A DNA stretch of 64,000 nucleotides from Bryobacteraceae bacterium. GTDB taxonomy: Bacteria; Acidobacteriota; Terriglobia; Bryobacterales; Bryobacteraceae. Position numbers and translations under genes: made by a program. This document shows positions 3,092-18,639 of the stretch, piece after piece (position 1 is the first letter of the stretch; each line of letters starts with the position of its first letter). The notes under the pieces were generated by a model. That model ran no database searches. It was not told where the DNA came from and was given only the letters and a program-made list of their open reading frames with translations. The stretch lies in NCBI GenBank assembly GCA_025056455.1, contig JANWVY010000005.1, positions 124,001 through 188,000 of the forward strand, read 5' to 3'.

Positions 3092-3093
3092 TC

Positions 3094-4302
3094 ATGACCA
3101 CCTACTTCTACAAAGCGGTGGCAGCGGATGGAAAAGCTCGCACCGGCACTTTGACGGCCAGTAGCGAGAAGCTTGTCGTGCGGGAACTGCGGCGGCAAGG
3201 CTTGACTCCTGTCTATGTCGGACTCCAGAAGACCTCTTCCGGCTTTTCGTTCAAACTTCCGTTCGGCGGCGCCCGGCGCAGAGATCTCCTTTTCTTTACC
3301 CAGGAGATGGCGACGCTGCTCAACTCTGGCGTTCCCCTCGACCGAGCCCTCTCGATCGCAAACGAGCTTACGGAACGTCCCCGATTCCGCTCCGTTATCT
3401 CTGACGTGCTTCGCCTGATCAAAGCTGGTAAATCGTTTGCCGATGCGCTGGCCACCTATCCCGAACACTTTTCTGAACTGTATGTCAACATGGTGCGCGC
3501 AGGCGAGGCAAGCGGAAGCTTAGGAGTGATCTTCCTTCGTTTGGCCGATTTTGAGCGTACGCGCGATGATCTCCGCGGCTACATCGTTTCCTCGCTCATT
3601 TATCCGGCCCTGCTCGCGCTGGTTGGTCTGGGATCGATCTTCGTGCTCCTCAACTTTGTTGTGCCGCGCTTTGCCGCAGTGTTTGAAGAATCCCGCATGC
3701 AGATGCCGCTGCCTACCAAGCTCATGTTGGAAACAAGCCGCGCCTTGCAAAACTACGGCTGGCTGGCCTTGCTGGCCGCATCTGCCGGCCTCGTTTTCCT
3801 GTATAGCTACACCCGAACGCCCCAAGGCCGCATGTGGTGGGATGCTTTCCGCCTCCAGCTGCCGCTCCTTGGCCCTGCGTTACGTAAAGCCGAGACTGCC
3901 CGTTTTGCGCGAGCGATGGCTACGCTCGTTGCAAACAGTGTGCCTCTCGTACAAAGCTTGTCCATCGCAGCGGCAACGCTGAACAATCGCAAAATTGCCG
4001 CGTCCCTGGAGGCTGTGGCTCAGGGCGTGAAGCGAGGCGAGGGCCTTGCCGCGCCTTTGCGCCGCACAGGGGAATTCCCCCCTCTAGCCGGCCACTTGCT
4101 CAGTGTGGGCGAGGAAACCGGTAAACTCGACGAAATGTTTCACCGCATGGCGGACGTGTATGAAAACGATACACGAGTAGCCATTCGCCGCTTCACGGCT
4201 CTCTTCGAGCCCTTGGTCATCCTCGTGATGGGCCTGATGGTTGGCGCCCTGATTCTAAGTATGCTTTTGGCGATCACCAGCATGAACGACGTAGCCGTTT
4301 AA
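3094..4302 (+). CDS. gspF: Type II secretion inner-membrane platform protein GspF
   Basis: A 402-residue protein of the GspF/PilC family, the inner-membrane platform on which GspE acts. It has the two-repeat architecture: a first cytoplasmic domain with the signature LLFFTQEMATLLNSGVPLDR, a membrane segment near 165-190 (YIVSSLIYPALLALVGLGSI), a second near 210-235, the second cytoplasmic repeat (RFARAMATLVANSVPLVQSL) and a C-terminal span (VILVMGLMVGALILSMLLAI). The N-terminal region (TTYFYKAVAADGKARTG) is typical. Length and domain order are normal. It lies between gspE and gspG with short gaps, as part of one operon. Confidence 0.95.
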   Translation: MTTYFYKAVAADGKARTGTLTASSEKLVVRELRRQGLTPVYVGLQKTSSGFSFKLPFGGARRRDLLFFTQEMATLLNSGVPLDRALSIANELTERPRFRSVISDVLRLIKAGKSFADALATYPEHFSELYVNMVRAGEASGSLGVIFLRLADFERTRDDLRGYIVSSLIYPALLALVGLGSIFVLLNFVVPRFAAVFEESRMQMPLPTKLMLETSRALQNYGWLALLAASAGLVFLYSYTRTPQGRMWWDAFRLQLPLLGPALRKAETARFARAMATLVANSVPLVQSLSIAAATLNNRKIAASLEAVAQGVKRGEGLAAPLRRTGEFPPLAGHLLSVGEETGKLDEMFHRMADVYENDTRVAIRRFTALFEPLVILVMGLMVGALILSMLLAITSMNDVAV

Positions 4303-4320
4303 GAATGTGAGGAGTTGGAT

Positions 4321-4755
4321 ATGACACACAATCGAGATTTCAGGCAAGCTGGCGTTACCCTCATCGAGATGCTCGTCGTGGTGACGATCATTGCACTCTT
4401 TGCCGCAGTCGTCGCCCCCCGCATGCTTCGCAAGAGCGACACGGCGCGGGCCACGGCCGCACGTGCCCAAATTAATGGCTTTATGACCGCCCTCGGAAGC
4501 TATAAGCTGGACACCGGTCTTTTCCCAACAACCGAACAGGGCCTACAAGCTTTGCGCACCCGGCCGGCTGGCGTCAACCAGTGGCAGGGGCCCTATTTGC
4601 CGCAAGACATTCCGCTGGACCCCTGGGGCCGCCCTTACGTCTACAAGTATCCAGGAGAACATGGCGACGAGCCTGACGTCATGAGCTACGGGGCCGATGG
4701 CGTGCCGGGTGGTGAGGGAATCAATGCCGATATTGTCAGCTGGAAAAGCCAGTAG
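4321..4755 (+). CDS. gspG: Major pseudopilin GspG
   Basis: A 144-residue class III prepilin. The leader is short and charged and ends in Gly11, followed by VTLIEMLVVVTIIALFAAVV with the conserved Glu at +5 needed for prepilin-peptidase processing and assembly. The globular part has the GspG features FPTTEQGLQALRTRP, DPWGRPYVYK and the calcium-loop-like end SYGADGVPGGEGINADIVSW. I chose the ATG at 4321 because GAGGAG lies 6 nt upstream at 4309-4314; a TTG two codons earlier is less likely. GspG forms the body of the pseudopilus that drives substrates through the secretin. Confidence 0.94.
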   Translation: MTHNRDFRQAGVTLIEMLVVVTIIALFAAVVAPRMLRKSDTARATAARAQINGFMTALGSYKLDTGLFPTTEQGLQALRTRPAGVNQWQGPYLPQDIPLDPWGRPYVYKYPGEHGDEPDVMSYGADGVPGGEGINADIVSWKSQ

Positions 4756-5266
4756 CGGCCCGGCTCTGCCGGCGCGACAAGGCCAAACCCCACCCCCATC
4801 CAGGGAATCCGGCATTACCCTTATCGAAATGCTGGTTGTCGTGACGCTCGTGGGATTAATGGTGAGCGTCAGTTTTCCAGCCGTGAGCTCCGGCCTGGAT
4901 TCCCTGCGGCTGATCTCAGCGGCCGATGCGGTAGCAAGTTTTCTCAACGCCGCTCTCAACCGCGCCGAGCGCCGGCAGGAAGTGATGGAGGTTTCCATCC
5001 TTACAGCGGAGAATAAACTAGTTCTGCGTTCCTCGGAAGCCAAGTTCCTCCGGGAGCTCTCCTTGCCGCCTGGCGTTGTGATTGAAACGGTGCTTCCCGA
5101 GGTTCCCCTCGCGGAGGATTCGCCGCGCCGCATTTTTTTGTATCCGGGTGGCGCCGCGCCCCAGATCTCAATTGAGCTCAAGAACCGCCGCAACGCGCGG
5201 AAACGCGTCCAGCTGGATCCCATGACGGGTGCGCCGCAGATTGAGAACTTGACGCCGGAGAAATGA
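4724..5266 (+). CDS. gspH: Minor pseudopilin GspH
   Basis: A prepilin-like protein of about 180 residues with a rather long leader (about 30 residues), a Gly/Ile cleavage site and the hydrophobic helix ITLIEMLVVVTLVGLMVSVS with Glu at +5. The mature domain contains the GspH-type stretch AADAVASFLNAALNRAERRQ. The start at 4724 is preceded by GAGGGA at 4714-4719, 4 nt away, and lies inside the end of gspG. An in-frame ATG at 4697 without a good ribosome site is the alternative. The assignment as GspH rests on size, position after gspG and the mature-domain sequence. Confidence 0.85.
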   Translation: MPILSAGKASSGPALPARQGQTPPPSRESGITLIEMLVVVTLVGLMVSVSFPAVSSGLDSLRLISAADAVASFLNAALNRAERRQEVMEVSILTAENKLVLRSSEAKFLRELSLPPGVVIETVLPEVPLAEDSPRRIFLYPGGAAPQISIELKNRRNARKRVQLDPMTGAPQIENLTPEK

Positions 5267-5273
5267 CAAGCTC

Positions 5274-5744
5274 ATGAAACATTTCGCCGCGAGTCGCCGC
5301 TCCACGATTCCTTCGCAGGCAGGGTTCACCCTGCTTGAAATGCTGGTGGCCACGACCATTATGGCTGTTGCGGTCGTGGGACTACTATCGGCGTTGTCGG
5401 CTTCCCTGCGCAACGCCGCGCGTCTCACCAACCAGGATCGCGCTGCGTTGGTTGCAAGGCGGAAGATGGAGGAGCTCTTGGTTCAAGCCCGTCTGCCCCG
5501 CTATCAAGTGCTCGAGGGACCCCTGACTCCCCTCAAAGACGCAGGTCTTCAAGGAGGATGGCGAGCCCGCATGACTCCTTTCGAGTTTCCACCCAACATC
5601 GAGCCCGGTAACTCCATTCTGGAGCGCGTGGAGTGTGAGATTTGGTGGATGGAAGCGGATCGCCGGCGCAGCTTTCAACTGGAGGCCTATCGCACCACCG
5701 TGCTCACACCCCAGGACATTCTCCAGGGCTTAACACCACCATGA
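5274..5744 (+). CDS. gspI: Minor pseudopilin GspI
   Basis: A 156-residue prepilin. The leader ends in AG, followed by FTLLEMLVATTIMAVAVVGL with the conserved Glu at +5. The segment after the helix, LSASLRNAARLTNQDRAALV, then ARRKMEELLVQ, matches minor pseudopilins of the GspI type, which usually have a shortened globular domain containing this kind of element. It starts 7 nt after gspH and its stop overlaps the gspJ start (ATGA at 5741-5744). GspI, J and K form the tip complex that starts pseudopilus assembly. Confidence 0.88.
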   Translation: MKHFAASRRSTIPSQAGFTLLEMLVATTIMAVAVVGLLSALSASLRNAARLTNQDRAALVARRKMEELLVQARLPRYQVLEGPLTPLKDAGLQGGWRARMTPFEFPPNIEPGNSILERVECEIWWMEADRRRSFQLEAYRTTVLTPQDILQGLTPP

Positions 5745-6514
5745 ACTGGATTTCGAACACCGCAAGCCGGGGCCGGAATCGTCAGGCGTCACGCGGCGTC
5801 ACTTTGATCGAAGTGCTCATCGCGGTGACGTTGTTGTCGCTTCTCGTCGCGGGTGTGCTTCTGGCCATGAGGGTTGGCCTGGACGCCCTTCAGAAGACAA
5901 ACTCCCGCTTCCTGGCCAACCGCCGCGCTCTTGGAGCGCAGCGCATCCTCGAACAGCAGCTCGCTGGGTTTGTAGTGACGGCAGCTGATTGCATTGCCTC
6001 AGGGGGTCCGCAGCCTACTGCCAAGATCAACTTTTTTCAGGGTGAGCCGCAAACCATGCGTTTCGTTTCCCAATTTTCGTTGGCCGGAGCCTCGCGTGGC
6101 TTTCCCCAAATTCTCGAATTTCAGGTGATTCCAGGTGAGGAGGGGCGCGGCGTGCGGCTCATTGTGAATGAGCACCTCTACACGGGACCGCTCAGTACCG
6201 GGAGGTTCTGCTATGGCCTTGCGCCCGACCCAGAAACTGGAACATCGCTGGCGAGATTTACGCCCGTCGTCACCGGACCCGGTTCGTTTGTGCTCGCGGA
6301 CCAGCTTGCGTTCTGCCGTTTCCTCTACAAAGAAACTCTTCCGGATCCACCCTTTGAACGCTGGTTGCCGCGCTGGGTTGCAACCTACCTTCCTGCCGCT
6401 ATTCGCGTGGAGATGCAACCTTTGGCACTCGACCCAGCGAAAATCGGGCTCACAAGTTTCGTTTCCCCGGTATTTGTGAGGAGCCGCGTGCCGTTGGGGG
6501 TCTACAGTGACTAA
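5741..6514 (+). CDS. gspJ: Minor pseudopilin GspJ
   Basis: A 257-residue prepilin. The leader ends in RG, followed by VTLIEVLIAVTLLSLLVAGV with Glu at +5. The globular part is large, as in GspJ, and begins with LDALQKTNSRFLANRRALGA. I place the start at the ATG at 5741, which overlaps the gspI stop. An earlier in-frame ATG lies inside gspI and would add residues unlike a leader peptide. The C-terminus overlaps the GTG start of gspK by 8 nt. Family assignment rests mainly on order, size and the prepilin signature. Confidence 0.85.
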   Translation: MNWISNTASRGRNRQASRGVTLIEVLIAVTLLSLLVAGVLLAMRVGLDALQKTNSRFLANRRALGAQRILEQQLAGFVVTAADCIASGGPQPTAKINFFQGEPQTMRFVSQFSLAGASRGFPQILEFQVIPGEEGRGVRLIVNEHLYTGPLSTGRFCYGLAPDPETGTSLARFTPVVTGPGSFVLADQLAFCRFLYKETLPDPPFERWLPRWVATYLPAAIRVEMQPLALDPAKIGLTSFVSPVFVRSRVPLGVYSD

Positions 6515-7535
6515 CGCTTGCCGGGGCAAACGGCTGGTTCTCAGGTTTGCTTCCAGCCGGGGCGGCGCTCTACTTGCCGTACTTTGGCTTTCGGCGGCGC
6601 TTTCTGCTGTTGCCTTCTCCGTCGCGACGACGATTCGCGGCGAAGTGGAGCGTTCCTCGACCGCTACGGACGGTGTGAAAAGCTACTTCCTAGCGCGCGG
6701 AGCGATTGAGCGGGCGCTTCTTTGGATGGTTTGGAGCGAACTGTATCGCAACCCAGACGGCAGCTATCGTTACTGGGTTCCAGGAGCGCGCCGGCTCAAT
6801 TTCGACTTCCCAGCGGGCCAAGTAGAGGTGCAGTTGATCCCCGAACTGGGAAAGCTCAATGTCAACACGATCCGGCCTGGGGAACTGTTCGCTCTGCTTC
6901 TCGCTTTGGGCGCCCCGGCCGAGCGCGCCCGAGAAATCACTGCCGCCATCCTGGACTGGCGTACACCCTCCCCGCAGGGCCTCACTGAATTCGATCAATA
7001 TTATCTGCTGCGAACTCCGACTTTTCTGGCCCGCCATGCGTCCATAGAAGAGATCGAGGAAGTATTAAACGTCAGAGGCATGACGCTTGAGTTATTCCAT
7101 GGAAGCTGGGACCGCGATCGAGAGGGCAATTTGTTTGCGAAAGCCGGTCTGAAGGACTGCCTCTCGGTATATGCTAGCGGCGAGCAAGTGGACGTCAATT
7201 CGGCGCAGCCCGAAACGTTGCTCGCCATGGGACTGCCGCCTGATGCCGTTGCCACCCTGGTGCAAGCGCGCCGCCTGGCGCCCTTTCAAAGTGTGGAGCA
7301 ACTGCGGTCGTTCAGTGCTCAACTGGGTCCGGTTTCTGGCAGGTTGACGGTGGGCATGGGAACGATTCTCACTGTCCGGGCCACGGCGCGCCTCCGTCTT
7401 GCCAGCGGCCAGCTCAGCGATCTGAAGCGCACCGTGGCTGCTTTGGTAAAACTGGCTCCCGTCACGCGCGACGCTCCTTACCACGTCATTCGCTGGTATG
7501 ACCAACCGGGATTGCTAAGGGGAGACTTGCAGTGA
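6507..7535 (+). CDS. gspK: Minor pseudopilin GspK
   Basis: A 342-residue protein starting with GTG inside the end of gspJ. It has the GspK form of the prepilin helix, GGALLAVLWLSAALSAVAFS, without the usual Glu at +5, as is normal for GspK, the tip pseudopilin. The large domain includes ARGAIERALLWMVW, the helix-hairpin-helix-like element VDVNSAQPETLLAMGLPPDA and LNVNTIRPGELFALLLALGA, all typical of GspK. It is followed by gspL with a 4-nt overlap. Role: caps the pseudopilus with GspI and GspJ and may contact substrate. Confidence 0.9.
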   Translation: MTNACRGKRLVLRFASSRGGALLAVLWLSAALSAVAFSVATTIRGEVERSSTATDGVKSYFLARGAIERALLWMVWSELYRNPDGSYRYWVPGARRLNFDFPAGQVEVQLIPELGKLNVNTIRPGELFALLLALGAPAERAREITAAILDWRTPSPQGLTEFDQYYLLRTPTFLARHASIEEIEEVLNVRGMTLELFHGSWDRDREGNLFAKAGLKDCLSVYASGEQVDVNSAQPETLLAMGLPPDAVATLVQARRLAPFQSVEQLRSFSAQLGPVSGRLTVGMGTILTVRATARLRLASGQLSDLKRTVAALVKLAPVTRDAPYHVIRWYDQPGLLRGDLQ

Positions 7536-8854
7536 GAGCGAGAAGTGGGGGGCTGCGGTCCTGGCTTGCGTTCGGAACGGGCGTTGGGATTGAAATCCAG
7601 GACCACGATCTCCGTGTGGTTTTAGCCAGAGTGCGCCCGTCTGGAATTGACGTGCTCGCAGCAGCCTCGATCGAGCGCTTCCGAGAACGTCCCGCCGCCG
7701 AGTGGGGTCAAGAGTACAATTTGTTAATCCGCCGCCACGGCGCCGGTCACCTCTCTGCAACAGTCGCCCTGCCCCGCCGCGATGTCATTGTGCGCACCGT
7801 TTTGCTGCCTGGTGTCGCGGAGAACGATTTAGAAGCGGCCCTGGCTCTACAAATCGATGGGTTGCACCCTTATCCCGAAGGCGAAGCCGCTTGGTCCTGG
7901 GCGAAACTCCATGCGCCGGGAGCCGTACTTGTCGGCCTGGCGCGACAGCCGGTGATTGACCACTATGCGGAGAAATTTGCAGAGGCGGGCATTAAGATCG
8001 CCAGTTTCACTTTCTCCGCCGCTCTCTGCTACAGCGCCGTCCGGCTTATGGGCCAACCTCCCGCAGAGGGCTTTTTGGGAATAACGGAAACCCCTGGCGG
8101 CGTCGAAGTGTACGGCGAAAGCCCAGCGCGTCCCTGTTATTCAGCGAGCTATCTTGAGCCGTGGGAGCGGGCTGCTGTGCTTTCCTTGGCGGAGCTCAGA
8201 TTGAGCTCTGCCAGCCGGCCGCGGGAACTTGTCGAACTCTTTCCCCCTCCGCGACGAGTTCCCGCTACCCAAGGGGAGCCCTTGCGAACCCATATGCTGG
8301 CCTATTTGGCCGCGCTAGCTGCGGCTTGTCCCCACTTAGCTTTGCGCCTCAACCTGCTGCCGCCCGCCTTGCGCGTGCAGAGTTCTCGGTGGATCTATGT
8401 GCCCACTCTAGTTCTGGGCGCATTGTTCATTCTTGGCTTAGTTGCCGTGGGAGTGTACTCGCGATACGAAAACCTAAAGTATCTGCGCGCGCTTGAAGCT
8501 GAGATTGCCTCGCTCGAGCCACTGGTCAAAAAGCTAGCGGAGTTAGATTCCCGCACCGACCAAGCGCGCCGCCGGATTGAGCTGCTCGATCGCTTTCAGG
8601 CCAGGACAAAAACAGATCTTGATGCCCTCCGCGAAGCAACGAAAATCCTTGCGCCTCCAGCTTGGTTGAACACGCTTGAGCTGAGCCGCACGGCCATGGT
8701 TGTGGCGGGCGAGGCAGATCAGGCGACGGGGCTGCTGAAAGCGCTCGATGGTTCGCCTCTCTTCCAGGGATCAGAATTTCTCGTGCCGCTAATGCGCGTG
8801 GGCAATACGGAGGTTTTCCGTATCCGCTCCGCGCGGGAAGGTGCTGAGCCATGA
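7532..8854 (+). CDS. gspL: GspL-like assembly protein with PilM-type and PilN-type halves
   Basis: A 440-residue protein starting with GTG. The N-terminal part (about 15-270) is an actin-like PilM/GspL cytoplasmic domain (VGIEIQDHDLRVVLARV; ALPRRDVIVRTVLLPGV). One membrane span follows at about 287-310 (VPTLVLGALFILGLVAVGVY), then a coiled coil (LRALEAEIASLEPLVKKLAE) and a small periplasmic ferredoxin-like domain ending in VFRIRSAREG, which resembles PilN. The protein therefore joins what are two proteins in type IV pili. In GspL the cytoplasmic domain recruits GspE. It overlaps gspK by 4 nt and gspM by 4 nt. Confidence 0.85.
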   Translation: MRARSGGLRSWLAFGTGVGIEIQDHDLRVVLARVRPSGIDVLAAASIERFRERPAAEWGQEYNLLIRRHGAGHLSATVALPRRDVIVRTVLLPGVAENDLEAALALQIDGLHPYPEGEAAWSWAKLHAPGAVLVGLARQPVIDHYAEKFAEAGIKIASFTFSAALCYSAVRLMGQPPAEGFLGITETPGGVEVYGESPARPCYSASYLEPWERAAVLSLAELRLSSASRPRELVELFPPPRRVPATQGEPLRTHMLAYLAALAAACPHLALRLNLLPPALRVQSSRWIYVPTLVLGALFILGLVAVGVYSRYENLKYLRALEAEIASLEPLVKKLAELDSRTDQARRRIELLDRFQARTKTDLDALREATKILAPPAWLNTLELSRTAMVVAGEADQATGLLKALDGSPLFQGSEFLVPLMRVGNTEVFRIRSAREGAEP

Positions 8855-9444
8855 AGCTCTCCGCACGCGACCGCCGGGCTTTGCTCTTGCTGGGCTGCGC
8901 AGTGATTGGGATTCTACTTTATGTCGCCATCACAGACGCCCCGGAACAAACAGCAACGGCAGTCTCGCTCGAGCAAGCAATTTCAGCCGCCGAAAAGCGT
9001 GTCGAGCGCATGAGGCAGCTAGCTGCTCAACTGCCAGCCCGGACGCAGGTTTATCAGAAGGTCATGGAGCAGCTTGCGCAGCGTGAAAAACGGATGCTCA
9101 CGGCCGATACTGCTGCCCAGGCGCAAGCGCAACTGCTCACGATTTTGCGACGTATCGCGAGCGCTCAGTCCCCTCGCATTGAGATCCGAAACAGCGAGTT
9201 CGGCCCGGTAAAAGCCTTTGGGGAGCACTATGGCGAGATTCCAGTTTCCATCACGATGGAATGCGGGATTGAACAACTTTTGAATCTCGTCGCGGAGCTC
9301 ACATCCCAGCCTGAGCTCGTGGCCTTGCAGGAGCTTCGTGTCTATTCCGCCAACCAAAAACAGAAGACGACGAACGTGAGACTTACGGTGTCGGCGGTTG
9401 TCGCCAAAAAGCTTGTGCCGGAGCGGAAGGGAGTGGCCTTTTGA
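8851..9444 (+). CDS. gspM: GspM/PilO-like assembly protein
   Basis: A 197-residue inner-membrane protein. A basic N-terminus (MKLSARDRRALLLLG) leads into a single span at about 10-28, then a coiled coil rich in Glu, Arg and Gln (ISAAEKRVERMRQLAAQLPA) and a small alpha/beta domain. This is the GspM or PilO layout, the partner of GspL. Sequence similarity in this family is low, so order and architecture carry the call. Both ends overlap neighbouring genes by 4 nt (ATGA at 8851, TTGA at 9441). Confidence 0.78.
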   Translation: MKLSARDRRALLLLGCAVIGILLYVAITDAPEQTATAVSLEQAISAAEKRVERMRQLAAQLPARTQVYQKVMEQLAQREKRMLTADTAAQAQAQLLTILRRIASAQSPRIEIRNSEFGPVKAFGEHYGEIPVSITMECGIEQLLNLVAELTSQPELVALQELRVYSANQKQKTTNVRLTVSAVVAKKLVPERKGVAF

Positions 9445-10154
9445 GAAAGAAACTGTGGTTTCTCAATTTGCTTCTTATCAGCGGCCTAGCGCTCATTGCT
9501 CGTGAGTTGCATGTCAGCTGGAAGGCGGCCCGCGAGCGGGAGAAGAAACTGGCTGCAAAACCTGCGCCAAAGCCGGAAACGGCGATTCCCGCCACAGCAC
9601 TGCCCGTCGCTCCGCCCCCTGCCCCTGTGCAAGCAGCAAGCTACGCCGATGTCGCGCAACAAATGTTGTTTTCCAAAGATCGCAACCCTGTGGTCGTAAT
9701 TGAGGCGCCGCCGCCAAAGCCGCAACCGCCTTTTCCGCGTTTTTACGGCGCGATGAATTTGGGCGACGGCATGATGGCGATTCTCAGCGACGGGCCCAGC
9801 CAACAGAAACCTTTTCGCCCAGGTGAAAAGGTCGGCGACTACAAGCTGGTAGAGATTGCAGAGGACACGCTGGTGTTTGAGTGGGACGGCAAGAGGTTCC
9901 CCAAAAAGTTTGACGACTTAGCGGATCGCAGCGAAGTGTCCTCGGATTCGACCCCACAGATTGCCGCCGCGCCCGCTGCCCCGCCGCCACCCCCAAAGCC
10001 CGCGGCACCAGGCCCCGGCGCTGACATCGGCGGTGGCTTCGCCGCCTGTAACCCGGGAGATTCTTCGCCTCCGGGCACCGTGATCAACAATATGCGCAAA
10101 GTAGTGACCGAAACGCCGTTTTCCAAGGTCTGTCGATGGGAACCTGTCAAGTAG
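9441..10154 (+). CDS. gspC: GspC-like inner-membrane protein with a Cys-pair C-terminal tail
   Basis: A 237-residue protein with a TTG start overlapping the gspM stop. It has one membrane span at about 5-20, a Pro/Ala-rich linker, and an HR-like domain (about 100-155: FYGAMNLGDGMMAILSDG, FRPGEKVGDYKLVEIAEDT, LVFEWDGKRF) of the GspC/PilP type that contacts the secretin. No PDZ or coiled coil follows. A second Pro-rich linker leads to a tail with C203 and C231 framing GDSSPPGTV, RKVVTETPF and CRWEPVK. The tail is unlike classical GspC and looks like a small disulfide-closed periplasmic module. The HR domain call is inferred from fold-like features and position. Confidence 0.72.
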   Translation: MRKKLWFLNLLLISGLALIARELHVSWKAAREREKKLAAKPAPKPETAIPATALPVAPPPAPVQAASYADVAQQMLFSKDRNPVVVIEAPPPKPQPPFPRFYGAMNLGDGMMAILSDGPSQQKPFRPGEKVGDYKLVEIAEDTLVFEWDGKRFPKKFDDLADRSEVSSDSTPQIAAAPAAPPPPPKPAAPGPGADIGGGFAACNPGDSSPPGTVINNMRKVVTETPFSKVCRWEPVK

Positions 10155-10186
10155 AAAAACTTCATTTACCAGGGAGGGAGACCAGC

Positions 10187-10633
10187 ATGAAGAAGATCAT
10201 TTTGTTGACTTTTTTAGGAGGACTTTGCCTCTTTTCTGGGCTGGCTGAGACGCAGCAACCGAACACAAAAGCGCCGAAAGGCGCGCGCCCGTCTTCCAAG
10301 GCATCCGCTAAAAAACCTGCATCTCCAGCAACAATCCTTCCCAAGGATGCAAAAGAGATTTTGCCAGGCACCTACCGTCACGTGGACTCGAAAGGAGAGG
10401 CCTGGATCTACCAGCAAACGCCGTTTGGGTGGATGCGCGCTCCTGAGAGTAAAGAACAGGCCGCAGACGTAATTCCCACGGATTGGACAGCTCGGGATGA
10501 GGGTGATTCGGTCACCTTCGAGCGACCGTACCCATTTGGCGGCGTCAAACGCTGGACAGTGAAGAAGACCGAAATGAGCAAGGTCGAGCAAGCAGTCTGG
10601 CAGCGACTTCAGGCCACCAAACAAGACAAATAG
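10187..10633 (+). CDS. Unrecognised exported protein between gspC and gspD
   Basis: A 148-residue protein. An N-terminal signal peptide (MKKIILLTFLGGLCLFSGLA) is followed by a Lys/Pro/Ala/Ser-rich stretch and a compact domain with PGTYRHVDSKGEAWIYQQ and TPFGWMRAPE. The ribosome site AGGGAGGGAG at 10171-10180 fixes the ATG at 10187. A Cys inside the signal region (LCLFSG) is not a convincing lipobox. No family is recognised. Its place between the GspC-like gene and the secretin gene suggests a periplasmic accessory of the machine, perhaps with a pilotin-like or GspC-stabilising role, but this is inference. Confidence 0.7.
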   Translation: MKKIILLTFLGGLCLFSGLAETQQPNTKAPKGARPSSKASAKKPASPATILPKDAKEILPGTYRHVDSKGEAWIYQQTPFGWMRAPESKEQAADVIPTDWTARDEGDSVTFERPYPFGGVKRWTVKKTEMSKVEQAVWQRLQATKQDK

Positions 10634-10659
10634 TCCGAAAAGTAGCAGAAAGAGAACTC

Positions 10660-12816
10660 ATGGTTCGCAGACTACTGACTGCTGTTTGGATCGCGTTTCT
10701 GATGCAAGGGCAACAGCAACCGCCTGCTCAGCAACCTCCGCCGCCCGTGCAAACCGCCTCACCAGCGGGAAACCTGGTGCTGGATCTGCCCAACGCTTCC
10801 TTGGTGGACGTCATCAACATCCTTGCGCGACATCTCAAGTTGAACTACATCCTGGATCCGCGGGTCAAAGGAACGGTGATTGTCAAAACCTATGGCGAAA
10901 TTAAGTCCGTGGACGCGCGTTCTCTTCTGGAAACCATCCTGCGGATTAATGGCGCCACCATGATTCAGGTGGGCGATATCTATCGCATCGTTCCCATCGC
11001 TGAGGCGGGCCGACTGCCGCTCAAACCTCAGGTCAACCCGGACGCGAAGGAAATTCCGGAAGACGAGCGGATGAGTTTGAACTTAATCTTCCTCAAATAC
11101 ACGCAGGTCGGGGACATGGCGAAGTTGCTCGAACCTTTCCGGGGCGAAGGATCCCAAGTCTCCATTTACGAACCCGCGAATCTGCTCATGGTCCTCGATA
11201 ACAACCGCAACATGCGACGCACCATGGAGCTGGTTGCCCTGTTTGATAGCGACACCTTCGCCACCAAGCGCGTGAAGATCTTCGAAGTAAAAGAGGCGCG
11301 TCCAAGCGACCTCGCCAAAGAATTGGAGAACGTGTTTAAGGCTTACGCTCTGAGTGAAAAAGTGAGCGCGGTGCGATTCATCGCCGTCGACCGGATTGGC
11401 GTGCTGATTGGCGTAGCGCCAAACCCCGGGGTCTTCGAGGAAGTGGAGAAGTGGATTAGGAGGCTCGATGTTCCGGTGAAGTCTAGCGCCAGCGCCACGG
11501 ACAACTATGTGTACCGGGTGAAATATGGCCGGGCAGAGACGCTGGCCATCGCCATCATGCAGTTGTATGGCGGTCTGCAGTATGGCTTTGGCGCCATGGG
11601 GATGATGGGCATGGGCGGTATGTTTGGTCCGGGGCTTTTTGGCGCTGGCCTGTATGGCGGGATGTACGGCGCTGGAATGGGAATGGCCGGGCTGTACGGC
11701 GGAGGCATGGGTTTTCCGGCTTTGGGTGGGATGGGTGCGGGCGGCTATCCCATGATGAGTCCCCCCGTGTTTACGGGCTCGGGCGTGCTTCCCCAAGGCG
11801 CCTCGGCAGCCGCACCTCTTACCACCACTACTCCGAGCTCAGCCATGGCCGCGGGTGGCGCTGATCTAACGGGTACCTACTTGGGGGCAGCCGGCGCGAC
11901 CACACAGAACCTGAAAATTCCTCGCGTGGTTCCCAATCCTTTCGATAACACGCTGCTCATACAAGGTACCCCAACTGAATATGACCAGATCGTACGGCTG
12001 CTCGAAAAGCTTGACGTCCCCCCGCGTCAGGTGTTGATCGAGGCCCGCATCTATGAAGTCACGCTGACCGGCGCACTGGCCAGCGGCGTGCAGGCCTTCT
12101 TGCAAAAGCGGAGCGCGGGTCGGGAAAACGACCGCGGCTTGTTGTCAGCGTCACTCGAAAATGGCGCGGTCGCCCTATCGACGGCGGGCTTGGTGGGCAA
12201 GACGAAAGAGCTGCTGTTATTTCTCACGGCGCAGGAAGAACAACGCCGGGCCAAGGTCGTCTCTGCGCCCTCTGTAATCGCTACCGACAGCATACCGGCG
12301 CTGGTTAACGTCGGCCAAGAAGTGCCCACCCTGAGCGCCAGTTCTACAACCCCGATTCAAAGCGGCGGCAGTAGCGTTTTCGCCAATACGATCACGAACC
12401 GCAATGCGGGCGTCACTCTGCAAATTCTCGCCCGCGTCATTCCAAGCGGGATTGTCACCCTGGTGATCAATCAGGAAGTCAGTTCACCAATCGCCCCGCC
12501 GGCGAGCGCTGCCATCCAGTCCCCGAGCTTTTCCAAACGCAACGTGACGACTCAGGTGACCGTCCAGGACGGCGATACGATTGCAATCGCAGGGATCATT
12601 CAGGAATCGGACACGGCCTCTACAGCGGGCATCCCGATTCTCAATCGGCTTCCTGGAGTTGGCGCCTTGTTTGGCAATCGCAGTTACAGTAAAGAGCGCA
12701 CCGAGCTGGTTGTCTTCATGACGCCCCGCGTGATTTACGATACAAACGAGATGACGGAGGCTTCCGACGAGCTCAGAAGCAAATTGCGCAGGCTCCAGCG
12801 AATGATCAAAGAGTAA
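10660..12816 (+). CDS. gspD: Type II secretion outer-membrane secretin GspD
   Basis: A 718-residue secretin. After a short signal region come the N0 domain (LVLDLPNASLVDVINILARH; LDPRVKGTVIVKT), N1/N2 domains (LIFLKYTQVGDMAKLLEPF; VKIFEVKEARPSDLAKELE) and N3 (PRVVPNPFDNTLLIQGTPTE; LDVPPRQVLIEARIYEVTL). The C-terminal secretin domain carries the family motifs VPTLSAS, TLQILARVIPSGIVTLVINQ, TQVTVQDGDTIAIAGIIQES and LPGVGALFGNRSYSKERTEL. A low-complexity insert of about 65 residues (about 303-368), almost wholly Gly, Met, Tyr, Phe and Ala, splits the periplasmic region before N3. The gene closes the operon. Confidence 0.94.
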   Translation: MVRRLLTAVWIAFLMQGQQQPPAQQPPPPVQTASPAGNLVLDLPNASLVDVINILARHLKLNYILDPRVKGTVIVKTYGEIKSVDARSLLETILRINGATMIQVGDIYRIVPIAEAGRLPLKPQVNPDAKEIPEDERMSLNLIFLKYTQVGDMAKLLEPFRGEGSQVSIYEPANLLMVLDNNRNMRRTMELVALFDSDTFATKRVKIFEVKEARPSDLAKELENVFKAYALSEKVSAVRFIAVDRIGVLIGVAPNPGVFEEVEKWIRRLDVPVKSSASATDNYVYRVKYGRAETLAIAIMQLYGGLQYGFGAMGMMGMGGMFGPGLFGAGLYGGMYGAGMGMAGLYGGGMGFPALGGMGAGGYPMMSPPVFTGSGVLPQGASAAAPLTTTTPSSAMAAGGADLTGTYLGAAGATTQNLKIPRVVPNPFDNTLLIQGTPTEYDQIVRLLEKLDVPPRQVLIEARIYEVTLTGALASGVQAFLQKRSAGRENDRGLLSASLENGAVALSTAGLVGKTKELLLFLTAQEEQRRAKVVSAPSVIATDSIPALVNVGQEVPTLSASSTTPIQSGGSSVFANTITNRNAGVTLQILARVIPSGIVTLVINQEVSSPIAPPASAAIQSPSFSKRNVTTQVTVQDGDTIAIAGIIQESDTASTAGIPILNRLPGVGALFGNRSYSKERTELVVFMTPRVIYDTNEMTEASDELRSKLRRLQRMIKE

Positions 12817-12851
12817 GGGGAGTACCCACTGCGGCCAAAGATCGAGAGTGG

Positions 12852-12926
<75 letters not shown>

Positions 12927-13234: not shown

Positions 13235-15034
13235 ATGAGTACGCAGCCATTCGAACCCAAACCCAGCCTGGGAACTGGTTTGGTTCAGATTCATCAATCG
13301 ATCGAGGACATCATTCAGCAGCGTCTTGCTGAGGAGCGGGCTCGCCTAGAGCGAGAAGCAGGTCTCGAGAAGAAAGAAATCCATCATTTCAAGCGCCCGG
13401 TCGAGCGACCATTTACCGCGAAGCAGCGAGGGCATACAACCCTGTTGTTTGGCGGGCTCACCTGGAAGCATGAAAAGCTGATTCACGGCGCACTGGAAGG
13501 CTTGGGTTACATGGCGGAGGCTTTGCCGACGCCCAACGTTGCCGCTTTTCAACTGGGAAAAGAATACGGCAACAACGGACAATGCAATCCGACGTATTTC
13601 ACGGTCGGGAATCTCGTTCAGTATCTCCAAAGTCTCGAAGAGCAAGGGCTAACCAAGCAGGAAATCATCGACCGGTATGTATTCTTTACGGCTGGTGCTT
13701 GCGGTCCCTGCCGGTTTGGGATGTACGAGGCAGAATACCGGCTTGCGCTTCGCAACGCTGGCTTTGACGGCTTCCGGGTGCTGTTGTTCCAGCAGTCTGG
13801 CGGGTTAAGCCAGTCGGATGCCGAAGCTGGCCTGGAAATGAACCTCGACTTCTTCCTAGGGATTCTCAATGCCTTGAATTGCGGTGACATCATCAACGAG
13901 GTCGCCTACCAGATCCGGCCCTTTGAGGTGCAGCCAGGCCAGACCGATCAAGTCGTGGACCGGATCATGGATTACATGCAAGAGGTCTTCCGGAAAAAAC
14001 AGCCCTGGAAGATCGGCGACCGGCTGCCGGGCTTTTTGGCTGGTTTTAAGGATACGGCTGAATATATCGGGAAGTTCGTAAACCAGCTCACGGGGGACGA
14101 CATTACCTCCTCGCTACACCGTTGCCGGGATATGTTCAACGAGGTGGAAGTGGACCGACTTCGCGTTAAGCCCATCGTCAAGATTACGGGCGAGTTCTGG
14201 GCTCAAACGACGGAAGGCGATGGCAACTTCAACATGTTCCGGTTCTTGGAGCGTGAGGGCGCCCAGGTTTTGGTGGAGCCCATCGGCACCTGGATCATGT
14301 ACATGATTCACCAGGTGATTCAAAAGTATCGGGACACCAAAGGGCTAGAAGTGGGTGCGACGCTTCCTCCGCTCTGGCGCTTGGATCAGAGGACCAAAAT
14401 TGAGTGGAATTTCCGCCACAAGGTCGCCAAGCTGAAGCTGGCCGAAGCCATCTTCAAGCGGGAGTATCACCGCTTGGTGGACGCCCTGGGAGGGTTGGCG
14501 CACCATCTGGTCGACCAGTATGAGCTTCAGCGCTTGGGTCACCCCTTCTATAATTCGCGTACCGGCGGCGGCGAAGGCCATCTGGAAGTCGCCAAGAATA
14601 TTTACTACTCCAACAAGGATCTGGCGCACTTTGTGTTGAGCCTCAAGCCGTTTGGTTGTATGCCATCGACCCAATCCGACGGAGCCCAAGCGGCCGTGGT
14701 CAGCCAGTACCGCGATATGATCTACCTGCCGATCGAGACCTCAGGGGAAGGCGAGATCAACGCGCACAGCCGAGTTCAAATGGCGCTGGGTGAAGCGAAG
14801 AACAAGGCGAAGCTGGAGTTTCAAGAAACTCTCGCCCGCACCGGGCTCACGCTGGATGACTGCCGCGCTTGGGTTGACGAGCATCCCGAAACAAAGCGTC
14901 CCATGTACCGCGTGCCGCACGTGAAAGGCGTAGTCGGAACGGCTGCCAACTTCGTTTTACATATTGCGGACCGCATCCAAAAAGAGCGCTGGAGCCGCAA
15001 GCCCATCGTTGCTGTTGCCGAAGCGGTACACTAA
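13235..15034 (+). CDS. 2-hydroxyacyl-CoA dehydratase-like protein (COG3581-type)
   Basis: A 599-residue cytoplasmic protein of the 2-hydroxyglutaryl-CoA dehydratase-related superfamily, whose members carry iron-sulfur clusters and receive electrons from an ATP-driven activase. Conserved-looking cysteines are C117 (NNGQCNPTYF), C156 and C159 (FTAGACGPCRFGMYEAEYR), C216, C297 and C475 (KPFGCMPSTQSDGAQAAV). The GACGPCRFG block is the strongest family mark. The N-terminus (about 20-60) is charged and probably helical. The gene lies 29 nt upstream of the double-activase gene, and the two almost certainly act together. The substrate cannot be told from sequence. A classical two-subunit dehydratase is unlikely because no separate alpha/beta pair is present. 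Confidence 0.75.
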   Translation: MSTQPFEPKPSLGTGLVQIHQSIEDIIQQRLAEERARLEREAGLEKKEIHHFKRPVERPFTAKQRGHTTLLFGGLTWKHEKLIHGALEGLGYMAEALPTPNVAAFQLGKEYGNNGQCNPTYFTVGNLVQYLQSLEEQGLTKQEIIDRYVFFTAGACGPCRFGMYEAEYRLALRNAGFDGFRVLLFQQSGGLSQSDAEAGLEMNLDFFLGILNALNCGDIINEVAYQIRPFEVQPGQTDQVVDRIMDYMQEVFRKKQPWKIGDRLPGFLAGFKDTAEYIGKFVNQLTGDDITSSLHRCRDMFNEVEVDRLRVKPIVKITGEFWAQTTEGDGNFNMFRFLEREGAQVLVEPIGTWIMYMIHQVIQKYRDTKGLEVGATLPPLWRLDQRTKIEWNFRHKVAKLKLAEAIFKREYHRLVDALGGLAHHLVDQYELQRLGHPFYNSRTGGGEGHLEVAKNIYYSNKDLAHFVLSLKPFGCMPSTQSDGAQAAVVSQYRDMIYLPIETSGEGEINAHSRVQMALGEAKNKAKLEFQETLARTGLTLDDCRAWVDEHPETKRPMYRVPHVKGVVGTAANFVLHIADRIQKERWSRKPIVAVAEAVH

Positions 15035-15063
15035 TCGAGCGTCCATCGCGCGAGGTTCAAAAC

Positions 15064-18000
15064 ATGGAAAGAAAGTTCATGATTGGCATGGACGTGGGGT
15101 CCACCACGGTCAAGGCCGTGGTGGTCGACGTAGCCACGGACCAGATCATCTGGCGCGATTATCAGCGCCATGACACCAAGCAGCCGGAGAAGTGTCTCGA
15201 GTTTCTCAAGCGTTTTGAGGAAGAAATTGACGGATTTCAGGCCAAGAATGCCCGCCTGTTCATCACGGGCTCAGGCGGCAGTGGTCTTGGCAAGTATCTC
15301 GGCGCAAAATTCGTCCAGGAAGTCAACGCCGTCTCTCTCGCCGTCGAAAAACTCTATCCGGAAGCTGGATCTGTCATCGAGCTGGGCGGACAAGATGCCA
15401 AAATCATCATCTTCAAAGAGGATCCTGAAACAGGGCGCAAGAAGAAGATCCCGTCCATGAATGACAAGTGCGCCGGGGGGACGGGAGCCGTCATCGACAA
15501 AATCAATGCGAAATTGCGCATCCCGCCGGAAAAGCTTTGCCAGATGGGCTACAAAGGGCTGAAGCTTCATCCGGTAGCGGGCAAGTGCGGCGTCTTTGCG
15601 GAAACCGACATCAACGGTCTGCAGAAAAGCGGTGTGCCCGCCGACGAGCTGATGGCCTCCTTGTTCGAGGCGATCGTCATGCAAAACCTTTCGGTTCTGA
15701 CACGCGGCAACACGCTCCGTCCGGTTGTGCTGTTGCTTGGCGGACCGAATACCTATATTGTCGGGATGCGAGATTGCTGGAAGCACAACATCCCGAAAAT
15801 CTGGGAGGAGCGTAAATACCCGCTGCCCGAAGGCGTACCCCCGGAGGATCTCATCCGGACGCCAGAAAACGCGCAGTATTTCGCCGCCATAGGCGCCGTC
15901 GAGTTCGGCAAAACCGAGGACGAGCATGTTGGCCAATATCTCGGCTATGAAAAACTCCAGTGGTATATCGAGGTTGGCCGCGACGAAGAGAAGAAGAAAA
16001 AAGGCGGTGGTGGCGGGCTGGCGAAAAGTGAGGCCGAGCTCGAAGCGTTCAAAGCCAAGTACCGCCACAAGAAATTTGTTCCTGCGACCTTCCAGCCGGG
16101 TGAAATCGTCGAAGGATTCATCGGTATTGATGGAGGCTCAACGTCCACCAAGGCGGTTCTCCTTTCCAAGGACAAAGAGCGCCGTGTGCTGGCTAAGGCT
16201 TACCAGCTCTCCAAGGGGAACCCGATTGAGGACTCGATCGAAATCTTCGCCAAACTCGAAAAACAGATCGCTGACCAGGGGGCCACGCTCAAAGTTTTGG
16301 GCGTGGGCACCACCGGCTACGCCAAGGACATTTTGAAGGATGTCATGGGGGCTGATGCCGCTGTGGTGGAAACGGTCGCGCACACGCAAGCAGGCCTGCA
16401 CTTCTACAAAAATGTGGACGTCATTTGTGACGTCGGCGGCCAGGACATCAAGATCATCATCCTCAAAAATGGCCGGGTGAAGGATTTTAAGCTCAATACG
16501 CAATGCTCGGCGGGCAATGGCTATTTCTTGCAATCCACCGCCCAGGGCTTCGGCTACCCGGTTGAACAGTTTGCGGATGTCGCTTTTAGCGCGACAGGCT
16601 TCCCGCAATTTGGCTACGGCTGCGCGGTGTTCATGCAGTCCGACATCGTGGACTTCCAGCGTCAGGGCTGGAAGCCGGAAGAAATCATGGCCGGCTTGTG
16701 CAACGTGCTTCCCAAAAACATTTGGCTGTATGTTTCGCAGATACCAAATCTAGCGGCCATTGGTTCAACCTTCTTGCTGCAAGGCGGCACTCAATACAAC
16801 CTCGCCGCCGTGAAGGCGCAGGTGGACTTTATAGAGTCCCGGTTTAAGGGCAAAGAACAACAGCCTACGGTGATCGTGCATGAGCACTGTGGGGAAGCCG
16901 GAGCCATCGGAGCGGCTCTTGAGGCTGGGCGGCTGTGGGATAACGGCCGGCAATCGACCTTCATCGGCCTTGAGGCTGTGGGACAGATCCAATACAAAAC
17001 CACGCGCAACGAGCAAACGCGGTGCTATTTCTGCAAAAACAAATGCCTCCGCACGTTCATCGATGTCAAGACGAGCGTTCTCAACGAGAATGCCTACGTG
17101 CCAAAGAAATCGAAGGTCCCGCTCGAAGAGGGTTCGCAACGGCTAATTATTGCCACTTGTGAAAAAGGCACGGTCGAAGACATCAATGAGATGCGGACCA
17201 TTAAAGGGAACCTCGACAAGGTGAAGAAAGAGAATCCCAACTTTGTCGAAATTGCCGCGCGTCAGGCCTTCAAGGTGCAGGACGTGCCGATCGTGGCGGA
17301 CCCGCTGCCCAAGTTTGCCTTCACCGCGGCGCAGAAGCGGCGCATCGAACTGATGAAGCGGCGCTCAGAGCTGCGGATCGGCATGCCTCGCGTACTGAAC
17401 ATGTATTCCCAGGCGCCGGTGTTTACGGGCTACTTCGCTTCGCTCGGAATCAAGCCGGAGCACATGATCTGGTCAGACTACACTTCGGAAACACTCTATA
17501 AGGAAGGGGCCAAGCGCGGCGCTATTGATCCTTGCTTCCCATCCAAGCTCGGCATTCCCCATGTGCACAACCTGTTGTATGTGCATCACGCGAAAAAGCG
17601 GCTAGACATCATCTTTTTCCCGATGATCGACTGTTTGACCAGCGATCTCACCTACACGCAGGCCTCGCGGGCTTGTCCAACGGTTGCCGCAACGCCGGCA
17701 GCAGTCAAAGCGGCGTTCACCAAAGAGGGGGATTTGTTCAAGGAAAAGGGAGTCCTCTTCCTCGACACCTTTGTGAACATTTCCAAGCCTGACTTGTTCG
17801 AGCGCCAGATGTATGAACAGTTCAAGGACATTTTGGGCCTTTCTCCTGAGGAAAACGCTCGCGCCATCCGCGAAGGCTACAAAGCGCTGCACTACTTCAA
17901 CAACGTGATCCTCCGCGGTGCCGCGCGAGAGGTGCTCGAGCAGCTGGAACGCGAAGACCGCCTCGGTGTCGTATTGCTTGGGCGGCCCTACCACAATGAT

Positions 18001-18639
18001 CCGGGTGTTAACCACGAAATCCTCGAAGAGTTCCAGAAACTGGGCTATCCAGTGTTCACGCAGGACTCTTTGCCCATCGACGACGACATCGTTTGGCGGC
18101 TGTTCGGCGACGAAGTGAACGCCGGTGAAATCCCACACCCGCTAGCGGTAACTGATGTGTGGAAGAACTCTTATTCCGAAAATACGACTCGCAAGGTGTG
18201 GGCCGCGAAATATGTTGCGCGGCACCCCAATCTGGTGGCCCTAGAGTTATCTAGTTTTAAGTGCGGCCATGATGCGCCCATCTACACAGTGGTGGAGGAA
18301 ATCGTGGAGCACTCGGGTACCCCATACTTCTGTTTCAAGGATATCGACGAAAACAAACCCACCGGCTCCATCAAGATTCGCACGGAAACCATCGCCTACT
18401 TCCTGAAACGATACCGGGAGGATATGGTGGTGCGGCGTAAGAAGATGACGGAGATCGAACGCAAACTGGCTGAGTTTGAGCAACGTTTACGTCGCCAGCT
18501 GCTGAAGGAGAAGCTCGACCGCCTGAACTCGGACGAGGCCGTGAAGAACTCGCTGGATCAGGGCGCCATGCCCCAAATTCACGTGAGTCTTAGCCAGCTG
18601 GCTCAGCCGGCGCCGCGTGCGCAAGCGCAAGGCGATTGA
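15064..18639 (+). CDS. Double BadF/HgdC-type activase fused to a DUF2229-like domain
   Basis: A 1191-residue protein. Domain 1 (about 1-300) is an ASKHA activase: MIGMDVGSTTVKAVVVD, ELGGQDAKII, C136 in KCAGGTGAV and C175 in GKCGVFAETDI, the two positions that bridge a [4Fe-4S] cluster in the HgdC dimer. A Lys4-Gly5 linker (about 313-321) leads to domain 2 (about 350-630), a second activase with GIDGGSTSTKAVLL, VGGQDIKIII, C481 (QCSAGNGYF) and C520 (YGCAVFMQSDI). A CxxCxxxC motif follows at C654/C657/C661. The C-terminal third is DUF2229-like, with C824, C857, C871, C1067 and C1090. Family knowledge says such activases use ATP to drive low-potential electron transfer. The partner is probably the upstream protein. 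Confidence 0.85.
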   Translation: MERKFMIGMDVGSTTVKAVVVDVATDQIIWRDYQRHDTKQPEKCLEFLKRFEEEIDGFQAKNARLFITGSGGSGLGKYLGAKFVQEVNAVSLAVEKLYPEAGSVIELGGQDAKIIIFKEDPETGRKKKIPSMNDKCAGGTGAVIDKINAKLRIPPEKLCQMGYKGLKLHPVAGKCGVFAETDINGLQKSGVPADELMASLFEAIVMQNLSVLTRGNTLRPVVLLLGGPNTYIVGMRDCWKHNIPKIWEERKYPLPEGVPPEDLIRTPENAQYFAAIGAVEFGKTEDEHVGQYLGYEKLQWYIEVGRDEEKKKKGGGGGLAKSEAELEAFKAKYRHKKFVPATFQPGEIVEGFIGIDGGSTSTKAVLLSKDKERRVLAKAYQLSKGNPIEDSIEIFAKLEKQIADQGATLKVLGVGTTGYAKDILKDVMGADAAVVETVAHTQAGLHFYKNVDVICDVGGQDIKIIILKNGRVKDFKLNTQCSAGNGYFLQSTAQGFGYPVEQFADVAFSATGFPQFGYGCAVFMQSDIVDFQRQGWKPEEIMAGLCNVLPKNIWLYVSQIPNLAAIGSTFLLQGGTQYNLAAVKAQVDFIESRFKGKEQQPTVIVHEHCGEAGAIGAALEAGRLWDNGRQSTFIGLEAVGQIQYKTTRNEQTRCYFCKNKCLRTFIDVKTSVLNENAYVPKKSKVPLEEGSQRLIIATCEKGTVEDINEMRTIKGNLDKVKKENPNFVEIAARQAFKVQDVPIVADPLPKFAFTAAQKRRIELMKRRSELRIGMPRVLNMYSQAPVFTGYFASLGIKPEHMIWSDYTSETLYKEGAKRGAIDPCFPSKLGIPHVHNLLYVHHAKKRLDIIFFPMIDCLTSDLTYTQASRACPTVAATPAAVKAAFTKEGDLFKEKGVLFLDTFVNISKPDLFERQMYEQFKDILGLSPEENARAIREGYKALHYFNNVILRGAAREVLEQLEREDRLGVVLLGRPYHNDPGVNHEILEEFQKLGYPVFTQDSLPIDDDIVWRLFGDEVNAGEIPHPLAVTDVWKNSYSENTTRKVWAAKYVARHPNLVALELSSFKCGHDAPIYTVVEEIVEHSGTPYFCFKDIDENKPTGSIKIRTETIAYFLKRYREDMVVRRKKMTEIERKLAEFEQRLRRQLLKEKLDRLNSDEAVKNSLDQGAMPQIHVSLSQLAQPAPRAQAQGD

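Follow-up and report, generated by a model that had tools for sequence, protein, structure and literature searches.

The window analysed here, a stretch of 64,000 nucleotides from contig JANWVY010000005.1 of a Bryobacteraceae bacterium (Acidobacteriota, assembly GCA_025056455.1), carries two genes that are read in the same direction and lie 29 bp apart. The first encodes a small protein (B) and the second a large one (A), and this pair, for which the original prediction had proposed an undescribed, ATP-driven low-potential reductase, is the subject of this study. Neighbourhood work was based on the best 80 of 517 relatives, of which 76 loci are labelled Acidobacteria and the rest Acidimicrobiia, Zixiibacteriota, Latescibacterota or just bacterium. 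B lies upstream of A on one strand in all 51 loci in which both genes are whole, with a median gap of 52 bp (range −4 to 1180, start codons being chosen by script), and the pairwise distances of A and B are strongly correlated across these loci (r 0.94); a 52nd pair (L042), in which the start of B is lost at a contig end, was left out. When 199 genomes of the phylum were searched, using residues 640-1191 of A as the query for A and reading counts off the tables, a strong B (E below 1e-60) was found in 19, with A downstream on the same strand and contig in 19/19, while one further genome (G155) had an A-type match without B. Within the family the pair is widespread: A was matched in 87 of 150 genomes, with about 75 of the subfamily by identity among the matches listed, and the genome of the window itself has one A and one DUF2229 match. 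A and B are a real, conserved two-gene enzyme.

Protein A joins two activase modules to a reductase module (Table 1). The hidden Markov model search suggested with the original prediction matched both of the expected domains, with two BcrAD_BadFG stretches (PF01869, E 1.5e-69) and DUF2229 at residues 771-1003 (E 7.8e-46), and the two activase halves align with each other (28% identity, E 4e-18). The positions given beforehand for the activase cysteines (C136/C175 and C481/C520) and for the C654/C657/C661 motif proved exact, and these residues, together with C699, C824, C871 and C1067, are invariant in the 53 aligned large proteins (window included). Loss of the activase cysteines in homologues had been named as a test of the idea, and they are retained. 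In the predicted model of A, with a predicted local distance difference test score (pLDDT) of 80.4 and a predicted template modelling score of 0.67, the top entries among the best 50 Foldseek matches are activases, a list that bears on the activase part of A and not on its DUF2229 part. A classical HgdC activase is a single domain of about 260 residues with a separate dehydratase, whereas A consists of two fused modules and a reductase module. A also scores far below the cut-offs of the benzoyl-CoA reductase equivalogs BcrA, BcrD and BzdQ (106.5, 75.5 and 82.6 bits against 578, 312.85 and 380.2), and its activase modules reach 86 bits against TIGR03286 (methanogenesis marker 15), which we take to be a protein of another activation system, far under the cut-off of 455.75.

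For B, Pfam gave no match at E ≤ 0.001, and nothing of note was found in Pfam, NCBIfam or the PDB by direct sequence comparison. The cysteines that had been noticed in it are present, C117, C156, C159 and C475 being invariant in the 61 aligned small proteins (window included); an alignment of 12 B proteins of greater divergence again shows C117, C159 and C475 invariant and C156 nearly so. A profile of residues 765-1125 of A aligned along most of its length with that of B (hhalign probability 90.5%, E 1.3e-6; reverse 83.7%), with C824, C871 and C1067 of A falling on C117, C159 and C475 of B, and the same part of A matched a set of 29 HGD-D proteins (a thirtieth contained stops and was excluded) over its C-terminal part at a probability of 96% (reverse 95.7). 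When B was modelled with AlphaFold2 (mean pLDDT 77.5), the best five Foldseek matches were chains of double-cubane cluster protein (DCCP) and 3-methylbenzoyl-CoA reductase (E 4e-3 to 1.1e-2); DCCP heads the list, in keeping with the kinship to double-cubane proteins that had been foreseen. Judged from sequence, the DUF2229 module of A and B are homologous reductase subunits with three cysteines in register, and they resemble the subunits of benzoyl-CoA reductase, 2-hydroxyacyl-CoA dehydratase and DCCP.

Table 1. Features of the B-A gene pair, with positions in the window
Feature	Position	Strand	Basis or remark
Gene B, 599 aa	13235..15034	+	Intact open reading frame; putative second reductase subunit (PlsR/Red2-like)
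C117 of B	13583..13585	+	First putative [4Fe-4S] ligand of B; cysteine in 30/30 across three architectures; aligns with C824 of A
C156-GP-C159 of B	13700..13711	+	C159, second putative cluster ligand; C156, subfamily-specific extra cysteine
C475 of B	14657..14659	+	Third putative cluster ligand; aligns with C1067 of A
Gene A, 1191 aa	15064..18639	+	Intact open reading frame; PlsA/Ger-like Act1-Act2-Red1
Activase module 1, residues ~1-290, C136 and C175	15064..15933	+	PF01869; TIGR02261 best stretch 8-227; repeat alignment; boundaries approximate
Activase module 2, residues 353-621, C481 and C520	16120..16926	+	PF01869 and TIGR00241 best stretch; solved activases 1hux, 4eht, 9gai
Four-cysteine site C654-x2-C657-x3-C661...C699	17023..17160	+	Putative additional [4Fe-4S], located between the activase and reductase modules
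Reductase module 1, residues 765-1125, C824/C871/C1067	17356..18438	+	Contains DUF2229; hhalign; cysteine conservation

The HGD-D family itself (PF06050) found no match in B or the C-terminal 552 residues of A (E ≤ 10), in the whole of A (E ≤ 0.001) or elsewhere in the whole genome of the organism. The earlier remark that no dehydratase pair lies nearby can therefore be extended to the absence of a stand-alone HGD-D gene genome-wide; it fails in that such a pair is present inside A and B themselves. Two further ideas about the metal site and the code were tried and rejected. A double cubane [8Fe-9S] uses six cysteines (PMC11971306), and since only three invariant cysteines are found in the A part and four in B, so that the six-cysteine site occurs in neither subunit, the double-cubane reading was dropped in spite of the structural match. 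Selenocysteine was likewise discarded, the in-frame TGA codons of two relatives (L124 and L128) being ordinary end stops; among the three relatives checked for TAG or TAA, the frame closes at that codon in L008 and L018, and L015 carries both an internal TAA and a terminal stop codon.

The same modules are found in other gene arrangements. Twenty further regions, measured as open-frame lengths without start-codon trimming, comprised 11 fused proteins (1303-1498 aa) and nine pairs (1019-1081 plus 421-706 aa), and BLAST finds A followed by B end to end in ten of the 11 fused relatives, the eleventh having matched A only. This is one enzyme plan packaged in three ways: fused, as a pair of the 1040+440 type, and as the 1191+599 pair of the window, in which the order is reversed. 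Two B homologues of the 440-aa type were scanned, one of which attains the DUF2229 cut-off and the other of which has no match, and one of three scanned fused homologues has a sub-threshold HGD-D match just after DUF2229 (25.6 against 28.4). In an alignment of 30 rows (10 of the window type, 11 fused and nine of the 1040+440 type), C136, C175, C481, C520, C654, C661, C699, C824, C871 and C1067 of A and C117, C159 and C475 of B were kept in 30/30, and C657 in 27/30, the three exceptions all being fused proteins. C475 fell to 29/30 after realignment with three named proteins; in the 30-row alignment itself one row (L182) has an X and gaps around this column. The shared cysteines thus follow a plan of 4+4+3+3, fourteen in all, across the three architectures with few exceptions. 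C156 of B stands apart from this plan, occurring in 10/10 of the 1191+599 subfamily, 0/11 of the fused proteins and 1/9 of the 1040+440 type.

All fourteen cysteines also occur in proteins of Listeria and Acetoanaerobium that are 27-28% identical to the window pair; a Paraclostridium protein in the same alignment is without the four-cysteine site and without the B cysteines. Both activase modules keep both of their cluster cysteines in all three of these named relatives, as they do in the 30 rows, which is consistent with the internal pseudo-dimer of activases that had been suggested for A. In a midpoint-rooted tree, in which no functionally proven sequence was included, the 1191+599 subfamily sits on a long branch as sister to the clade with the Listeria and Acetoanaerobium proteins (support 1.0), and it groups with the fused proteins L176, L180 and L181 and is separated from the 1040+440 type. 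Listeria is listed with plsA/plsR orthologues and plasmalogens (PMC9702350).

This anatomy is that of a group of enzymes acting on membrane lipids. PlsA is described as Act1-Act2-Red1-Red2 in a figure legend, and PlsA/PlsR share with the window pair two activation and two reduction modules, membership of the benzoyl-CoA reductase/2-hydroxyacyl-CoA dehydratase superfamily and conserved cluster cysteines (PMC12838417). Their packaging varies likewise, with a two-gene plsA-plsR operon in C. perfringens and one fused gene in Enterococcus, Lactococcus and Bifidobacterium; the single genes of E. faecalis (4248 bp) and L. cremoris (4311 bp) are reported to be active in E. coli (PMC12838417). Validated Ger enzymes are PlsA homologues with two PF01869 domains and make alkyl ethers (PMC13274423, PMC11150832, PMC8788747). 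Ger of Desulfatibacillum alkenivorans, which yielded dialkylglycerols on expression, is one chain of 159 kDa as against the split pair of the window (PMC11150832); a Ger, Tmari_0479, is also reported from Thermotoga maritima (PMC11150832). Like A, these carry two PF01869 domains, and DUF2229 is present in our control genomes of T. maritima and Lactococcus lactis, the latter genus including the active single-gene PlsA of L. cremoris (PMC12838417), as well as in Thermus and Deinobacterium. Across these reports, expression of PlsA/PlsR and Ger in E. coli gives vinyl- or alkyl-ether glycerolipids (PMC12838417, PMC11150832, PMC13274423). The features that mark them, two PF01869 modules each with both cluster cysteines and two reductase modules in one chain or a partner gene, are found in A and in A plus B, respectively. 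The pair of the window departs from PlsA/PlsR in having the PlsR-like gene first, in the greater length of its proteins and in the extra C156 of its PlsR-like subunit.

Class I benzoyl-CoA reductases (Bzd, Mbd and Bcr) also have two activase and two homologous reductase subunits, and in BzdO the catalytic [4Fe-4S] is ligated by three cysteines; however, these are four separate subunits with an aryl-CoA substrate (PMC11971306), and the window protein lies far below their equivalog cut-offs. DCCP and its reductase, although the top structural match of B, use six cysteines against the three and four of the window subunits.

On the basis of the fourteen-cysteine anatomy and the phylogeny, we therefore class the pair with the PlsA/Ger enzymes, as a divergent relative. 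That A and B form a reductase of the superfamily is, in our view, very likely, and the ATP-driven, low-potential character foreseen in the original prediction is supported by homology. The claims that the system is undescribed and that no substrate is known are not supported, as the same Act1-Act2-Red1-Red2 plan occurs in PlsA/PlsR and Ger (PMC12838417, PMC11150832, PMC13274423); the pair is most likely a divergent variant of these rather than an unknown kind of reductase. We put at roughly 0.72 the probability that A and B are one enzyme, a putative, divergent and split glycerolipid ester reductase of the PlsA/PlsR or Ger type. A membrane lipid is the likely substrate, rather than an acyl-CoA, and there is a good chance that the group attacked is a glycerol ester. 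In the part of the literature that was covered, we noticed no account of the 1191+599 form or of an operon joining it to the gene discussed below, which is weak evidence of novelty; papers on selenium-linked activases, Streptococcus and methanogens contributed only annotation tables.

In the scheme that we infer for the clusters, the electron path, the substrate and the product, a ferredoxin-like donor would reduce a [4Fe-4S] cluster that the two fused activase modules hold between them, through C136/C175 and C481/C520, and ATP hydrolysis at these modules would drive single electrons uphill. The electrons would probably pass via a cluster at C654/C657/C661/C699 to two three-cysteine clusters, each with an open iron site, at C824/C871/C1067 of A and C117/C159/C475 of B. 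There, the glycerol-ester carbonyl of a membrane lipid would be reduced with loss of water to give a vinyl or alkyl ether, so that the ester bonds of membrane fats would be turned into tougher ether bonds. The product would most likely feed, or be fed by, a Tes-like radical S-adenosylmethionine (SAM) synthase, which may join alkyl tails into membrane-spanning lipids of the type of branched glycerol dialkyl glycerol tetraethers (brGDGTs). The window genome has five matches to POR-gamma.

The Tes-like gene is what links the pair to membrane-spanning lipids. A radical SAM protein of 693-698 aa is encoded near the pair at L079, L092, L101 and L102, and that of L092 matches the structure of the archaeal tetraether synthase Tes (7tol) at E 7e-61; against NF045702 the L092 and L101 proteins score 317-324 bits, below the cut-off of 450. 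In some lineages the arrangement is contiguous. The gene directly follows A at three loci, two with the order B-A-Tes-like and gaps under about 50 bases (G208 and G278) and one in which B and the start of A are lost at a contig end (G312). At four others it is no more than about 1.5 kb distant: a small open reading frame separates it from A at L092 and L102, and it is upstream on the same strand at L101 and upstream and divergent at L079 (the same contig as G245). Among the 199 phylum genomes, a Tes-like match at E ≤ 1e-200 was present in 19 of 20 with an A-type gene and in 74 of 179 without (p 2e-6, kinship ignored). According to PMC10087280, the acidobacterium Solibacter usitatus contains brGDGTs together with iso-C15 alkyl mono- and diethers, and PlsAR and Tes homologues have been proposed for it; another report calls the acidobacterial pathway 'still unclear' and the activity of bacterial Tes homologues unconfirmed (PMC11868695). 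A role of the pair in membrane-spanning ether lipids is, on this evidence, slightly favoured. The operon-like order with the radical SAM gene in some genomes would also suit a protein that merely donates ATP-driven electrons to, or reactivates, the Tes-like enzyme or another metalloenzyme and does no lipid chemistry of its own, as would the score of the activase modules against TIGR03286, low as it is. We consider this very improbable, since two reductase subunits with three-cysteine sets would be superfluous in a mere donor, and single-gene PlsA and Ger yield ether lipids in E. coli (PMC12838417, PMC11150832).

A number of observations weigh against a glycerolipid ester reductase with a role in membrane-spanning lipids. 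The pair is only 27% identical to the Listeria PlsA-type protein and its subfamily stands on a long branch, and the substrate could therefore have changed; moreover, the alignment was made without any protein of proven activity. B against the HGD-D profiles was not significant (hhalign probability 8.6 and 22.8%), its Foldseek matches have modest E-values with root mean square deviations of 12-15 Å, and its model is weakest, with pLDDT below 50, in the loops carrying C156/C159 and C475. Ger2, a close homologue of Ger, gave no product in E. coli (PMC11150832). As to the Tes-like gene, it is near the pair in only 4/80 loci, and, when counting is confined to the 36 of 51 whole pairs flanked on each side by 3.5 kb or more, in 4/36; two additional regions (L240 and L241) yielded no such gene, and four others (L236-L239) probably repeat L038, L075, L072 and L078. 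In the genome of the window it sits on another contig than the pair (G000:C22:990198-992216; 80% identical to that of L101, with one further match in the genome). In the phylum sample, G010 combines A and B with no Tes-like match. Within Bryobacteraceae co-occurrence is uninformative, because a Tes-like match is nearly universal there (147/150 genomes at E ≤ 0.001, a few of them weak); three genomes of the family (G236, G237 and G256) carry A with only weak Tes-like matches. The organism, with three COX1-family genes and no NrdD match, is an unexpected home for an oxygen-sensitive reductase; the class is described as such, although one PlsA is active in E. coli under aerobic conditions (PMC12838417). 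NrdD occurs in 1/150 family genomes and is uninformative as a correlate of anaerobic life. Finally, Ger and PlsA can in general not be told apart by sequence (PMC13274423).

Much of this would also fit the same machine working on another substrate, that is, a free-standing ATP-driven reductase of the superfamily that acts on a CoA ester or small molecule and has no lipid role. The long branch, the identity of 19-28% between the subfamily and the fused, 1040+440 and named relatives, and the subfamily-specific C156 are what one would expect of it; no neighbouring gene is conserved beside the pair beyond a minority of loci, and the substrates of the superfamily are very diverse (PMC11971306). We nevertheless hold it to be unlikely. 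The lack of a conserved neighbour cuts both ways, as no conserved pathway neighbour for such a substrate was found at the loci either, and the genome is without a stand-alone HGD-D gene; in addition, a Listeria PlsA-type protein stands in the sister clade, and at seven loci a Tes-like gene adjoins the pair or lies close to it.

The failure of sequence to separate PlsA from Ger also leaves some room for a plasmalogen (vinyl ether) synthase instead of an alkyl-ether Ger, a reading that overlaps with ours in so far as we leave the product open. That the closest named relatives in the tree include the Listeria PlsA-type protein argues for it. We regard it as rather doubtful: two activase domains have been linked to alkyl-ether producers (PMC13274423), although the PlsA legend names Act1 and Act2 (PMC12838417), and the ethers found in Solibacter usitatus are alkyl ones (PMC10087280).

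If the glycerolipid ester reductase reading is taken one step further, the 1191+599 subfamily might be dedicated to forming the ethers of membrane-spanning lipids in acidobacteria, acting in oxygen-respiring bacteria together with a Tes-like synthase whose gene may or may not adjoin the pair. The additional cysteine and the longer subunits of the subfamily would then be adaptations, either to oxygen or to the chemistry of tetraethers or of the sn-2 position. We offer this tentatively, as a conjecture with somewhat less than an even chance. If true, the pair would account for the step from ester to ether that is missing from brGDGT production in Acidobacteriota, and with it for a step in the making of the soil 'molecular thermometer' lipids, which are widely used for past temperature and pH (PMC13274423). 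As the candidate is compact, comprising two genes, this step is directly testable.

Several smaller observations concern the surroundings of the pair. The clustering of open reading frames across the 80 loci relied on pruning that dropped B or A itself at some of them, and may therefore have overlooked genes that are short or overlapped. Between B and A, eight loci (L081, L084, L086, L087, L088, L096, L102 and L109) encode a small protein (median 162 aa), presumably glyoxalase/VOC-like as judged by eye. A conserved open reading frame of about 85 aa was found at L110:15482-15736 and at L083, L085, L090, L092, L097, L099, L101, L102, L104, L111, L114, L115 and L118; within the 80-locus set it lies at most 300 bp downstream of A in 9 of 11 carrier loci and 2 and 5 kb off in L085 and L101. 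Two members tested matched no Pfam family above cut-off, and the window gave no match to it. At L083 a second system, of the 1046+453-aa type by length, directly adjoins the 1191+599 pair on the minus strand (L083:5196-9631). Two replicons among the regions, NZ_CP030101.1 (L242) and NZ_CP154629.1 (L243), are filed as plasmids yet measure 2.9 and 2.6 Mb, which is chromosome-sized, and are probably mislabelled. Upstream in the window, a run of genes at 1460-12816, which by eye we take to be type II secretion-like (ATPase, inner-membrane protein, pseudopilins and secretin), ends just before a tRNA-Arg at 12849-12925.

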